From Sulfurimonas hongkongensis (GTDB lineage: Bacteria; Campylobacterota; Campylobacteria; Campylobacterales; Sulfurimonadaceae), in contig NZ_AUPZ01000007.1 in NCBI RefSeq assembly GCF_000445475.1, positions 124,001-188,000 of the forward strand: a DNA stretch of 64,000 nt, in the 5' to 3' direction. The notes under the pieces are model-generated. The model made no database searches and had not been told where the DNA came from. It was given only the letters and a program-made list of their open reading frames with translations. Of this stretch, positions 39 through 43,327 are shown in pieces (position 1 is the first letter of the stretch; the number at the start of each line of letters is the position of its first letter). The position numbers and the translations under genes are program-made.

Positions 39-650
39 CTGATACTATCTTTCTTTGAAGGATTTTTACTCGGACTTGGTGCTGCAGTTCCACTAGGTCC
101 GATCAACATTCTTATAATGAATGAAGCTATAAAAGAGTACAAGAGTGCTGTAATGATAGGTCTTGGAGCTATGAGTTCTGATGTTATATATCTCTTTTTA
201 ATCATGCTTGGACTCGTGGCTTTTTTCAATCAGTATTATGTACTAAACTCTCTCTCTTTTTTTGGAGCTATTTTTCTAATCTATCTAGCTTATGCTATTT
301 TTAAAAGTAGAAATGAGAGGCAAAAAACTAGTAGTATTTATAAAAAAAGCAGTTACTCAAAACTCTATATAAAAGGGTTGACTCTAACCTTTGTAAACCC
401 ATACAGCATAGGTTTTTGGTTAAGTGTTTCAGGTTTTGTAGCATCAAAAGAGCTAGAGATGTTTGTCACTCTCTTTGGAATGCTTAGTGCAATAGCACTT
501 TGGATAATCATCATGCCATATCTGGTTCACAAGAGTAAACATAGGATATCATCAAGAGTCTCTTACTGGATTAACATTGTCTCAGCAGTGATTTTGTTGG
601 GTTTTGGACTGACAATGTTTCTTAATCTTTTCTCGCAAATGGAGTTTTAA
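39..650 (+). CDS. LysE/RhtB family amino-acid exporter, probable CTG start
   Basis: Inner-membrane exporter of the LysE/RhtB family, whose members export amino acids or related small molecules; the substrate here is unknown. The family N-terminal signature GLGAAVPLGPINILIMNEA lies mostly upstream of the first ATG (position 117), so starting there would delete half of the first membrane helix. The frame is closed by TAA at 36-38. The only codons that give a full first helix are CTG (39) or ATA (42). GGAG at 30-33 is spaced five bases from the CTG, so I start there (203 residues, normal for the family). Several hydrophobic segments follow, and the conserved FVNPYSIGFW motif sits mid-protein. 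The start is inferred; the family call is firm. Confidence 0.8.
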   Translation: MILSFFEGFLLGLGAAVPLGPINILIMNEAIKEYKSAVMIGLGAMSSDVIYLFLIMLGLVAFFNQYYVLNSLSFFGAIFLIYLAYAIFKSRNERQKTSSIYKKSSYSKLYIKGLTLTFVNPYSIGFWLSVSGFVASKELEMFVTLFGMLSAIALWIIIMPYLVHKSKHRISSRVSYWINIVSAVILLGFGLTMFLNLFSQMEF

Positions 651-29229: not shown

Positions 29230-29910
29230 ATGTTAATTTATGCCAAACAACCAATCCAATATCTTATACAGAATTATCCAAACAAGATAAAGACTCTCTA
29301 CCTGGCAAAAGAAGTAGATAAAAAAGAGTATGCTCGCTTGATGAAGATGAACTTTGAAGTAAAACGCATTCCATCAGATGCAGCTGGAGCGATGTGTAAA
29401 AATGCAAATCATCAAGGTATCTTAGCTGAGATCGATGAGTATGAACTGCACCATTTTAAATCTTTTTTAGATAAAGAGTTTGTCTTAGTCTTATCTGGAC
29501 TGACTGATGTCGGAAATATTGGAGCCATTGTAAGAACTGCTTATGCAATGGGAGTCCAAGGTATAGTGGCATGTGGAGTTAAAAATCTTAACCTCGCGCC
29601 AATAGTAAGAACAAGTACTGGCGCTCTGTTTGATATGCCCTTCGCGCTAGAACACAATATCTTTGATGTAATAAATGACTTAAAAACATCTGGGTTTTGT
29701 TTATATGGTGCTGATATGGGCGGAGTTGACATAAGAGATGTCAAGTTAAAGCAAAAAAGAGTTTTAGTCCTTGGTAACGAGGGAGAGGGTTTAAGCAAAA
29801 GAATAGTATCAAAGTTAGATGAGGTTGTAAGTATAAAAATGTCGCATAAATTTGACTCTTTAAATGTTAGTGTGGCAGGAGCTATTTTGATGGATAGGAT
29901 GAGAATATGA
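29230..29910 (+). CDS. rlmB: TrmH-family rRNA 2'-O-methyltransferase (RlmB type)
   Basis: SPOUT methyltransferase, probably for 23S rRNA G2251. A short substrate-binding N-domain (MLIYAKQPIQYLIQNYPNKIKTLYLAK) leads to the SPOUT motifs: VLSGLTDVGNIGAIVRTAYAMG, VRTSTGALFDMPFA, LVLGNEGEGLSKRI and MSHKFDSLNVSVAGAILMDRM. These match RlmB/TrmH motifs 1-3. 226 residues. Its stop overlaps the start of the next gene (ATGA). RlmB versus another TrmH-family target cannot be settled by eye. Confidence 0.88.
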   Translation: MLIYAKQPIQYLIQNYPNKIKTLYLAKEVDKKEYARLMKMNFEVKRIPSDAAGAMCKNANHQGILAEIDEYELHHFKSFLDKEFVLVLSGLTDVGNIGAIVRTAYAMGVQGIVACGVKNLNLAPIVRTSTGALFDMPFALEHNIFDVINDLKTSGFCLYGADMGGVDIRDVKLKQKRVLVLGNEGEGLSKRIVSKLDEVVSIKMSHKFDSLNVSVAGAILMDRMRI

Positions 29911-40235: not shown

Positions 40236-42785
40236 ATGGACATTAGAGAAGAGTACTTAAGATTTTTTGAATCAAAAAACCATGAGAGAGTTGCATCCGC
40301 ACCTTTAGTCCCAGAAGATGCCACGCTTCTTTTTAACAACGCTGGTATGGTTCCATTCAAATCAATCTTCACAGGCGAAATCCCACGACCTACAAATCCT
40401 CGTGTTACTTCATGTCAAACCTGTTTAAGAGCTGGCGGAAAGCATAATGACTTAGAAAATGTAGGGCACACGAGCCGCCATCATACATTTTTTGAGATGT
40501 TGGGAAACTTTAGCTTTGGAGACTACTTTAAAAAAGAAGCTATTGCCTACTCATGGGAGTTTATAACTGAGGTTTTAAAACTTCCTGTTGAGAAACTTTG
40601 GGTTACAGTTCATGATAGCGATGATGAGGCTGAACTTCTTTGGCAAAAATATGTAGCAAAGGATAGAGTTCTCCGCTTAGGTGATGAAGATAACTTTTGG
40701 CAAATGGGAGATACTGGACCTTGTGGGCCTTGTAGTGAGATATTTTATGACCAAGGTGCTGAGAATTTTAACTCTAAAGAGGATTATCTAGGTGGTGATG
40801 GCGATAGGTTTTTAGAGATTTGGAACCTTGTTTTTATGCAATATGAAAGAAGTGCTGATGGCAAAATGACTCCACTTCCAAAACCATCCATCGATACTGG
40901 TATGGGTTTAGAGAGAGTTACTGCTGTTTGTGAGGGAGTTGAGAGTAACTATGAATCATCTCTTTTTATGCCAATCATCAAAGAGGTTGAAAAGCTTATA
41001 GGCAAAGAGTATGTCTATAAAAGTGGAGCATCTTATAGAGTTATAGCTGACCATATAAGAACGGCTCTGTTTTTATTAGCACAAGGCATAAACTTCTCAA
41101 ATGAGGGTCGTGGATATGTGCTTCGCCGAATTTTACGAAGAGCTGTAAGACATGGCTATCTTTTGGGTTTTAGAGAAGCTTTTATGTATAAACTTGTTGA
41201 TGTTGTAGTTGGCATTATGGGCGGGGAATATGAGTACTTAAGCCAAAGAGCAGCAGCTGTAAAAGAGCAAATAGAGCTTGAAGAAGAGAGATTTTTCAAG
41301 ACTATAGAGTCTGGCATAGCTCTTTTTGAAGAAGAACTAAGAAGCACTAAAGATACTTTTAGTGGAGATGTGGCTTTTAAACTCTACGACACTTTTGGTT
41401 TTCCACTTGACTTGACAGAGGATATGCTAAAAGGCAAAAACATTAAACTTGACTTTGTTAGATTTGAAGAGCTTATGCAGGAGCAAAGATCTCGCGCAAA
41501 AGCGGCGTGGAGGGGAAGTGGAGATATTGCAACTCAGGGAGACTTTAAAGAGCTTTTAGAAGAGTTTGGTGCAAATAAATTTGTAGGTTATGAGCAGATG
41601 AGCCATAACTCAAAAGTTTTAGCTCTGCTTGATGCGGACTTTAAAAGAGTTAACTCTTTGGATAAAGATGAGAGTGGCTGGGTTATGCTAGATACTACTC
41701 CATTTTACGCTGAAAGTGGCGGACAGTGTGGAGATATAGGAGAACTTGAGGGTTTTGCTAGTGTTAAGGATACAAGAGGCTTTTTTGGACTTAACCTCTC
41801 AGAGATAAAAGTTATCTCTAAGATAGAAGTAGGGCAAATGGTAGATGCAAAGGTTGATAACTCAAGAAATGAGATCATCAAACATCACTCGGCAACTCAT
41901 CTCTTACATGCGGTACTTTTTGATGTCCTAGGTGAGCATATCTCACAGGCCGGTTCACTAGTAGAAGCCACAAGATTAAGATTTGACTTCTCGCATCCAA
42001 AAGCTTTAAGTAGTGATGAGTTAAGAGAGATAGAACTTCGTGTAAACAATGAAATATTAAGAGGCATAGAGGCTAAAACAGAACTTTTAAACATAGAAGA
42101 TGCTAAGAAAAGCGGTGCAAAAGCACAGTTTGGCGAAAAGTATGGCGATGAAGTTAGAGTTGTTAGTTTTGGGGATGCTTCTATAGAGTTTTGTGGTGGT
42201 GTTCATGTTAAAAATAGTGCAAATATAGGCTCATTTATCATCACAAAAGAGAGTGGTGTAAGTGCAGGAGTGAGACGGATTGAAGCACAATGCGGTGAAG
42301 CTGCTTATAGATACTTTTGCCAGCAAAGAGAGTTGCTAAAGCAAGTTGAAGCTGAGGTTAAAAATCTTGACGTATTGGCTGGTATCTCAAGACTAAAGTC
42401 AAATATAAACGAGTTAAAAACGGAACTTAAAACTGCACAAGAGAGTTCTAGCGTTGAGATAAAAGCAGACACTATTAATGGTGTAAGCGTAGTGGTTGAA
42501 GAGTTAATGTCTGGCGATATAAAAGAGAAAATCGATGAACTTAAAGTGCAAAACGATAGACTTTGTGCAATGCTTTTTCAGGTAAAAGGTGACAAGGTTC
42601 TGATCGCAGCTGGTGTAAAAGATGCTAATGCAAAAGCAGGCGAGTGGATAAAAAAAATAGCTCCAATACTTGGCGGTGGCGGTGGTGGAAGACCTGACTT
42701 TGCGCAAGCTGGAGGAAAAGATAAAACAAAACTTCCCGAGGCAAAGCAAGAAGCATTAAAATATATAAAAGAGATACTAAGCTGA
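40236..42785 (+). CDS. alaS: Alanyl-tRNA synthetase
   Basis: Class II aminoacyl-tRNA synthetase charging tRNA-Ala. The aminoacylation domain has [71 protein letters not shown] and [10 protein letters not shown]. The editing domain has [12 protein letters not shown] and the CGGVH zinc-binding motif, and the C-terminal end has [15 protein letters not shown]. Length (849 residues) is full. Its TGA overlaps a CTG that probably starts maf. Confidence 0.97.
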
Positions 42786-43327
42786 TACGTTTAGCATCCA
42801 ACTCCTCTACTCGTGCTAAACTTTTGCATGAGGCTGGCATAGAGTTTATCCAAGAGACATACGATTTTAATGAAGATTTTATAGTTGCAAAAACTCCTAA
42901 GGAGTTTGTTTATCTTGCTACTTTGGGAAAGTATGAGACAAACCTAAGAGCCTTTGGTTATGATGAACTTTCTCTCTTAGTCGCCGATACTGTAGTAACA
43001 GCAAATGGTAAAATCTTACGAAAAGCTAAAGATGAGGCTGAGGCAAGAGAAATTTTACTATCTCAAAGCGGCAATCTTACCTCTATTATCACCTGCATGA
43101 TATACCAAAGCAAATATAAAAAAATCATAGATATTTCACAAACAACTTACAGTTTTAGAGAATTTGATAGAGATGATTTAGAAAAGTATCTAAAAAGTGG
43201 TGAGTGGATGGGTAAAGCAGGGGCTTGTATGGTTGAGGGATTTTGCAAAGCTTATATAGAAGAAGTAAGAGGCTTTGAGAGTACCGCTATGGGCTTAAAT
43301 ATAGAGGTGTTAAAAGCATTTTTATAA
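42782..43327 (+). CDS. maf: Maf-like nucleotide pyrophosphatase, probable CTG start
   Basis: Maf/HAM1-type nucleoside triphosphate pyrophosphatase, which removes modified nucleotides or restrains septation. The family N-terminal motif (I/L)[13 protein letters not shown] is encoded upstream of the first conventional start (TTG at 42824) and continues in frame back to CTG at 42782, which overlaps the alaS TGA (CTGA). Starting at TTG would delete the S-x-x-R motif that forms the active site, so I start at CTG (181 residues, normal). Further motifs are the catalytic Asp in [25 protein letters not shown] and a C-terminal MGLNIE. Confidence 0.82.

Follow-up and report, generated by a model that had tools for sequence, protein, structure and literature searches.

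The maf gene of Sulfurimonas hongkongensis very probably begins at a CTG codon that overlaps the stop codon of the alaS gene in front of it. Its translation would be started there with fMet-tRNA, by reinitiation after alaS, at a junction formed by the loss of a spacer; both the initiation and the coupling we infer from the sequence. The pair lies in the window analysed here, a 64,000-nucleotide stretch of the assembly GCF_000445475.1 (contig NZ_AUPZ01000007.1, positions 124,001-188,000, forward strand), in whose numbering the following features are given.

39..650, + strand: lysE, LysE-type translocator, with a CTG start at 39-41 directly after an in-frame TAA at 36-38 (PF01810, 2.1e-31; junction and orthologue starts)
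40236..42785, + strand: alaS, alanine--tRNA ligase, the 5' partner of maf (TIGR00344, 934 bits; PF01411, PF07973, PF02272)
42768..42774, + strand: weak Shine-Dalgarno-like AAGAGA upstream of the maf CTG (pairing energy with the 16S tail of genome G134)
42782..42784, + strand: CTG start of maf, CTGA forming a 4-nt overlap with the alaS stop (genus alignment of the first-residue column; CTG also in genome G037)
42783..42785, + strand: TGA stop of alaS (sequence)
42782..43327, + strand: maf, 181 aa Maf-family nucleotide pyrophosphatase, stop included (PF02545, NF003141, PDB Maf proteins)
42803..42814, + strand: S8-S-T-R11 (S-x-x-R), contributing to the active site of Maf, 5' of the first conventional start (YhdE alignment)
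42824..42826, + strand: TTG, where the maf frame has its first conventional start codon; improbable as the real start (CTT in G037; S8 and R11 lost)

The junction and the protein

A preliminary description of this DNA had placed the maf CTG inside the alaS stop, and its coordinates are exact. The alaS gene ends in AGC-TGA, and maf, on the same strand and in the -1 frame relative to alaS, reads CTG-ATA-CGT-TTA-GCA-TCC-AAC-TCC-TCT-ACT-CGT from 42782. The pair has the NTGA geometry, in which an NTG start overlaps the upstream TGA by 4 nt on the same strand. The ATGA, GTGA and TTGA junctions said to occur elsewhere in the window are found in the table of open reading frames, with starts at 29907, 47078 and 59391 (ATG), 45239 (GTG) and 36203 (TTG). 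From 19 codons above the CTG through codon 20 of maf the sole ATG, GTG or TTG is the TTG at 42824 (residue 15), and the S-x-x-R loop does lie upstream of this conventional start, as had been described, with S8 and R11 both preceding it. A synonymous change of the last alaS codon (42780-42782) from AGC to AGT would make TTGA with AlaS unchanged; the C is kept both here and in the sister genome G037.

The product matches PF02545 (E 3.5e-31; 108.8 bits against a cut-off of 27) and NF003141 (254 bits against 161), the latter match beginning at residue 2. S8 and R11 align with Ser10 and Arg13 of YhdE, both among the six residues of the Maf signature, once the chain numbering is shifted by one to fit that of PMC3899018. 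The whole S-R-E-K-D-K signature is present (S8, R11, E31, K50, D69, K81) and invariant in an alignment of 12 Sulfurimonas Maf sequences (A1) that includes both sisters; S8 and R11 were assigned through the YhdE alignment and that paper, and E31, K50, D69 and K81 by order and spacing only. According to the available part of the paper, Ala in place of the signature Arg (and of two Lys) inactivates YhdE, YceF, BSU28050, YOR111W and ASMTL-Maf, and S10A lowers the affinity and activity of YhdE (PMC3899018). A protein begun at TTG 42824 would be without both S8 and R11. The family match and all six signature residues are shared with the pyrophosphatases YhdE and YceF, but residue 10 is a Thr, neither the Arg of YhdE nor the aromatic residue of YceF described there as subfamily markers (PMC3899018), and because of this the substrate specificity may differ from that of either enzyme. 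Thr10 (42809-42811) is invariant across the 12 sequences.

The start column among relatives

Of 100 genus genomes sampled, 90 contained an NF003141 match at E <= 0.001 and 87 a match over the cut-off. From these 87 loci 86 were taken, that of S. hongkongensis included; the one left out was that of G049, whose maf is divided between two contigs. Sub-cut-off fragments in G070, G076 and G090 were also excluded. With the loci of G134 and G116 added, the genus census comprises 88 maf loci. A canonical start stands in the CTG column in 65 of them (58 ATG, 6 GTG, 1 TTG) and, as ATG, one codon above it in 21. The two loci with no canonical start at either place are those of S. hongkongensis and G037, and both have CTG. 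Among 80 named loci, whose species overlap with the genus census, 79 have a canonical start at the column or one codon above, the exception being the G037 record. A class-level search matched 243 of 298 genomes, from which 69 loci were taken (two of the same genus); the canonical start is at most three codons from the column in 68, the exception being L244 in genome G294. The comparison of orthologous alaS-maf junctions that had been proposed as a check therefore places the CTG in the start column, with overlapping or near ATG or TTG junctions in relatives, and maf has a CTG in a conserved start column and no usable ATG, GTG or TTG.

The closest comparison is with G037 (MAG STCSWMC_194), whose Maf is 89.5% identical and which keeps CTGA, in junction DNA that is 83% identical across 500 bases. 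Its maf has the first canonical codon, ATG, at residue 13, against AAA in S. hongkongensis, and the TTG of S. hongkongensis at residue 15 is CTT in G037; the earliest canonical start common to both is at open-frame index 66, or Maf residue 48. The preliminary description had named a sequencing error at 42782 and initiation at TTG 42824 as findings that would tell against it. With no canonical start common to the two sisters before residue 48, both are very unlikely: an error was rejected as the CTG recurs in an independent genome whose DNA is 83% identical here, and the TTG is not conserved in that genome.

Over maf residues 1-14 the sisters differ by four synonymous codon changes and one non-synonymous, five of the six base changes falling at third positions, and over residues 15-181 by 39 synonymous against 18 non-synonymous changes, with the frame intact in both. 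For residues 1-14 the corresponding counts are two and four against G134, and seven and four against G116, too few to add support.

Proposed initiation at the overlap

In the mechanism proposed here, a ribosome or 30S subunit terminating alaS at the UGA at 42783 would reinitiate on the overlapping CUG with initiator fMet-tRNA, and proximity would offset the poor start codon and the weak Shine-Dalgarno sequence. The 28-contig assembly (G000) yielded no match to 16S rRNA, so pairing energies were computed with the 16S tail of G134; this assembly lists a completeness of 100, and the rRNA operons are likely to have been left unassembled. The energy at maf is -2.9 kcal/mol. Among 49 starts picked by hand from the window the median is -4.4, with 15 of them as weak as maf or weaker, and among 1000 random sites it is -1.9. 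The protein output of CUG is given as about 0.86% of that of AUG, and the M1 change in initiator tRNA is reported to lose discrimination against CUG, in the part of PMC11497404 available. A relaxed initiator tRNA was rejected as an explanation: a pair of identical initiator tRNA genes was found, with the standard GGG/CCC anticodon stem and no M1-like change, and each has a 5' C opposite A when read by eye. Since the tRNA is standard, strong discrimination against CUG is to be expected, and together with the weak Shine-Dalgarno sequence this would make position the main asset of the maf start and favours reinitiation coupled to alaS.

Coupling is described as most efficient at spacings of -4 to +3 nt, with -4 (NTGA) the commonest (PMC12548453), and a Shine-Dalgarno motif before the downstream start as typical of NTGA pairs though not universal, while in Sulfolobus a gene pair whose stop and start adjoin proved not to be coupled (PMC6728339). 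In the sections available of these papers and of PMC10666635, the coupled NTGA pairs have the same geometry as alaS-maf, with two bases shared with TGA and co-directional genes. The difference is that N is C here, whereas the two research papers among them name ATGA or GTGA and the review writes NTGA with C not named in the text available; the term CTGA was not found in PMC10666635. RNA structure at the junction is nothing special (z = -0.32). A conserved ribosome-binding site within alaS was not seen: the 10 third positions before the stop are unchanged (P ~0.02), and a run of 14 elsewhere in the same 200 alaS codons makes this run unexceptional.

The CUG start itself is like that of the CUG-initiated bacterial genes covered in the portion of PMC11497404 available, from which maf differs in the overlap with alaS, the occurrence in two species and the plausible origin that outgroups provide. 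The GTC start of sigR in Streptomyces and the IF3-repressed ATT start of infC, as presented in the accessible part of PMC5472188, are likewise non-canonical and missed by annotation restricted to ATG, GTG and TTG; those starts are regulated and experimentally tested, whereas the maf CTG is a start predicted from sequence. The maf start is a rare but known kind of start codon at a common kind of junction.

Alternative readings

The main alternative to initiation at the CUG, and an unlikely one, is reinitiation after alaS at the next codon, AUA 42785, giving a protein one residue shorter, because the sequence separates adjacent near-cognate codons only through the column argument. ATA is itself a near-cognate start and directly follows the CTG in maf and lysE alike, and the alaS-maf junction of G294 may hold an ATAG overlap; the orthologues, however, keep ATG, GTG or TTG at the position of the CTG or immediately upstream, and in maf their codon 2 is usually ATA, ATT, TTA or CTT. 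It is more improbable again that Maf is made as an AlaS-Maf fusion or with an N-terminal extension, through a -1 frameshift from alaS or a near-cognate start inside it. The maf frame does have 19 open codons upstream of the CTG in both sisters, but the last 22 alaS codons, stop included, contain no X-XXY-YYZ heptamer, the outgroups have no overlap, six of the nine bases by which the sisters differ within the 60 nt preceding the CTG are at alaS third positions, and an ATT in the would-be extension is not conserved in G037. A slippery -1 heptamer was rejected for the alaS tails of both the window and G294.

Initiation at TTG 42824, which yields the 167 aa protein that open reading frame calling with ATG, GTG and TTG alone returns, is highly improbable. 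It is the first conventional start of the frame, but it was rejected since G037 reads CTT there and the active-site residues S8 and R11 would be lost, the equivalent Arg mutants being inactive in five Maf proteins in the data available from PMC3899018; its Shine-Dalgarno energy, -1.7 kcal/mol, is also weaker than that at the CTG. There is just as little reason to think that the start codon has decayed and maf is no longer effectively translated. Such decay would fit a weak start with a weak Shine-Dalgarno sequence, but the predominance of synonymous changes over residues 15-181, the frame intact in both sisters and the six signature residues kept in all 12 sequences of A1 speak against it.

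Origin of the CTGA overlap

For initiation at the CTG, the outgroups suggest how the overlap came about. When a 501-base junction query was compared with 135 genus genomes, it was matched in one piece, among the matches listed, only in S. hongkongensis, G037, G134 and G116; the other genomes among these matches contained parts of it, and 12 had no match. All four alaS genes end in EILS-stop. In G134 a TAG stop is followed by a 10-nt spacer and TTG-TTA-CGT, and in G116 by a 13-nt spacer and ATG-ATA-AGA, with the TTG and the ATG respectively in the CTG column. A small deletion, fusing a TGA stop with the (A)TGA of the start, probably gave rise to the CTGA; this path we infer, the ancestor not being observed, and both outgroups use TAG rather than TGA as the alaS stop. 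The spacer of 10-13 nt would have been lost in the common ancestor of S. hongkongensis and G037, and AGC-TGA-TA would be reached most simply by a deletion between the stop TGA and the TGA inside an ATG-ATA start. With AGC as the last codon of alaS, such a deletion would convert ATG to CTG.

Other alaS-maf junctions in the class sample include an independent TTGA with a TTG start (L284), TAATG (L264 and L278) and, in 13 loci, TAG-C-ATG. In many other Sulfurimonas alaS and maf are separated by a gene encoding a protein of about 160 aa, which in L009, L003, L005, L006 and L248 is of membrane type; the only family hint for this protein was a sub-cut-off match to DUF2269 (E 0.033). A search of the four genomes in which alaS adjoins maf, made with no positive control, did not find the gene. 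Its loss as the direct cause of the CTGA was rejected, as G134 and G116 are already without a gene there.

A second CTG start and the rarity of such starts

The preliminary description had also suggested, from lysE and maf together, that this organism tolerates CTG as a start codon where genes are coupled. The lysE CTG holds; the wider claim is unproven, with two cases in 102 genes. Because the TAA immediately precedes the CTG, no start further upstream is possible in the lysE frame, and the first ATG (117) would cost 26 residues, the beginning of the PF01810 match among them. The start column holds ATG, GTG or TTG in 16 of 18 other near-full-length orthologues, including TTG in G037, and the remaining two (L205, L213) have a canonical start one codon above it. 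This set excludes L216, a fragment at the edge of a contig (51 residues aligned at 69%, its ATG two codons above the column), together with L217 and L218, both below 30% identity, and L219 and L220, for which there was no match. The lysE junction is an adjacent TAA and CTG with a good Shine-Dalgarno sequence (-6.4 kcal/mol with the 16S tail of G134) and no overlap, in contrast to the CTGA overlap and weak Shine-Dalgarno sequence of maf. The frame upstream of lysE ends ...CPECGVSKEDFSPYDGD and is presumably that of a rubredoxin. Codon 2 is ATA in both genes, and the two CTG starts have a similar context, possibly by chance: ACTAA-CTGATAC (34-45) and ACTAAG-CTGATAC (42776-42788). CTG makes up 0.96% of window triplets, yet it occupies the start column of both genes that lack a canonical start there.

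How rare such genes are was screened by comparing 244 kb of the S. hongkongensis contig with 340 kb of G134 and about 60 kb of G037, in which 97 and 64 genes respectively had reciprocal best hits (union 102). In the first screen the canonical start of the reference lay above the first start in S. hongkongensis in seven pairings (five genes), three of these genes sharing a canonical start within nine codons, so that lysE and maf remain. This screen was blind to 23 of the 97 pairings and 6 of the 64, where the first canonical start in S. hongkongensis lay outside the alignment. The second screen covered those pairings over a span reaching 12 codons above and 15 below the point where the alignment starts, and found no canonical codon in it in 12 pairings (eight genes, lysE and maf included). 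Five of the eight (at window positions -10376, -8790, -2993, 28006 and 38850) share a canonical start further in or are not flagged against G134, and the eighth case is a 63-codon frame (-27245 to -27057) that may not be a gene. Nine genes have no canonical start column in common with a reference in their first half; those of the nine that the second screen did not flag carry their own canonical codon close to where the alignment begins, a candidate start in each case. By these screens, only maf and lysE among the 102 genes are shown to need a non-canonical start, and there may be others.

CUG is put at 0.024% of bacterial initiation codons in the part of PMC11497404 available, a rate at which about 0.02 such starts would be expected among 102 genes, against the two seen; if annotation-based, that figure would be expected to be an underestimate. 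A reconstruction of start-codon switches, as far as its text is available, derives CUG from 2 of 61,358 ancestral AUG, 1 of 5,080 GUG and 1 of 2,468 UUG codons (PMC5622118). A literature search for Sulfurimonas with a CTG start found no paper, which does not imply absence from print, and one on CUG initiation and CTGA junctions returned nothing relevant among the matches listed.

Wider meaning

At L244 in G294 (around position 1500) maf adjoins alaS, and an in-frame ATA shares bases with the TAG of alaS (ATAG), with the same 4-nt geometry. The maf frame there has no stop in the 12 codons above the column, and no ATG, GTG or TTG from that point to codon +20. This ATA is a candidate AUA start, seen in one genome, from the only species of its genus covered, and possibly an error. 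Maf has been implicated in division arrest. It is conceivable, if doubtful, that stop-codon-coupled junctions license starts that are otherwise largely rejected, something annotation would conceal, and that the weak CTG may fix Maf at a low level relative to AlaS; this reading draws on two or three cases, the CUG of maf, the CUG of lysE and possibly the AUA of G294.

What the junction offers is a probable natural CUG start at an overlap, present in two species, with a plausible origin and 42 kb from another CUG start. A gene finder that allows just ATG, GTG and TTG would return a Maf protein from which some of the active site is missing. Should starts of this kind concentrate at stop/start overlaps, then whether reinitiating ribosomes check the start codon more laxly than newly recruited ones would be directly testable.
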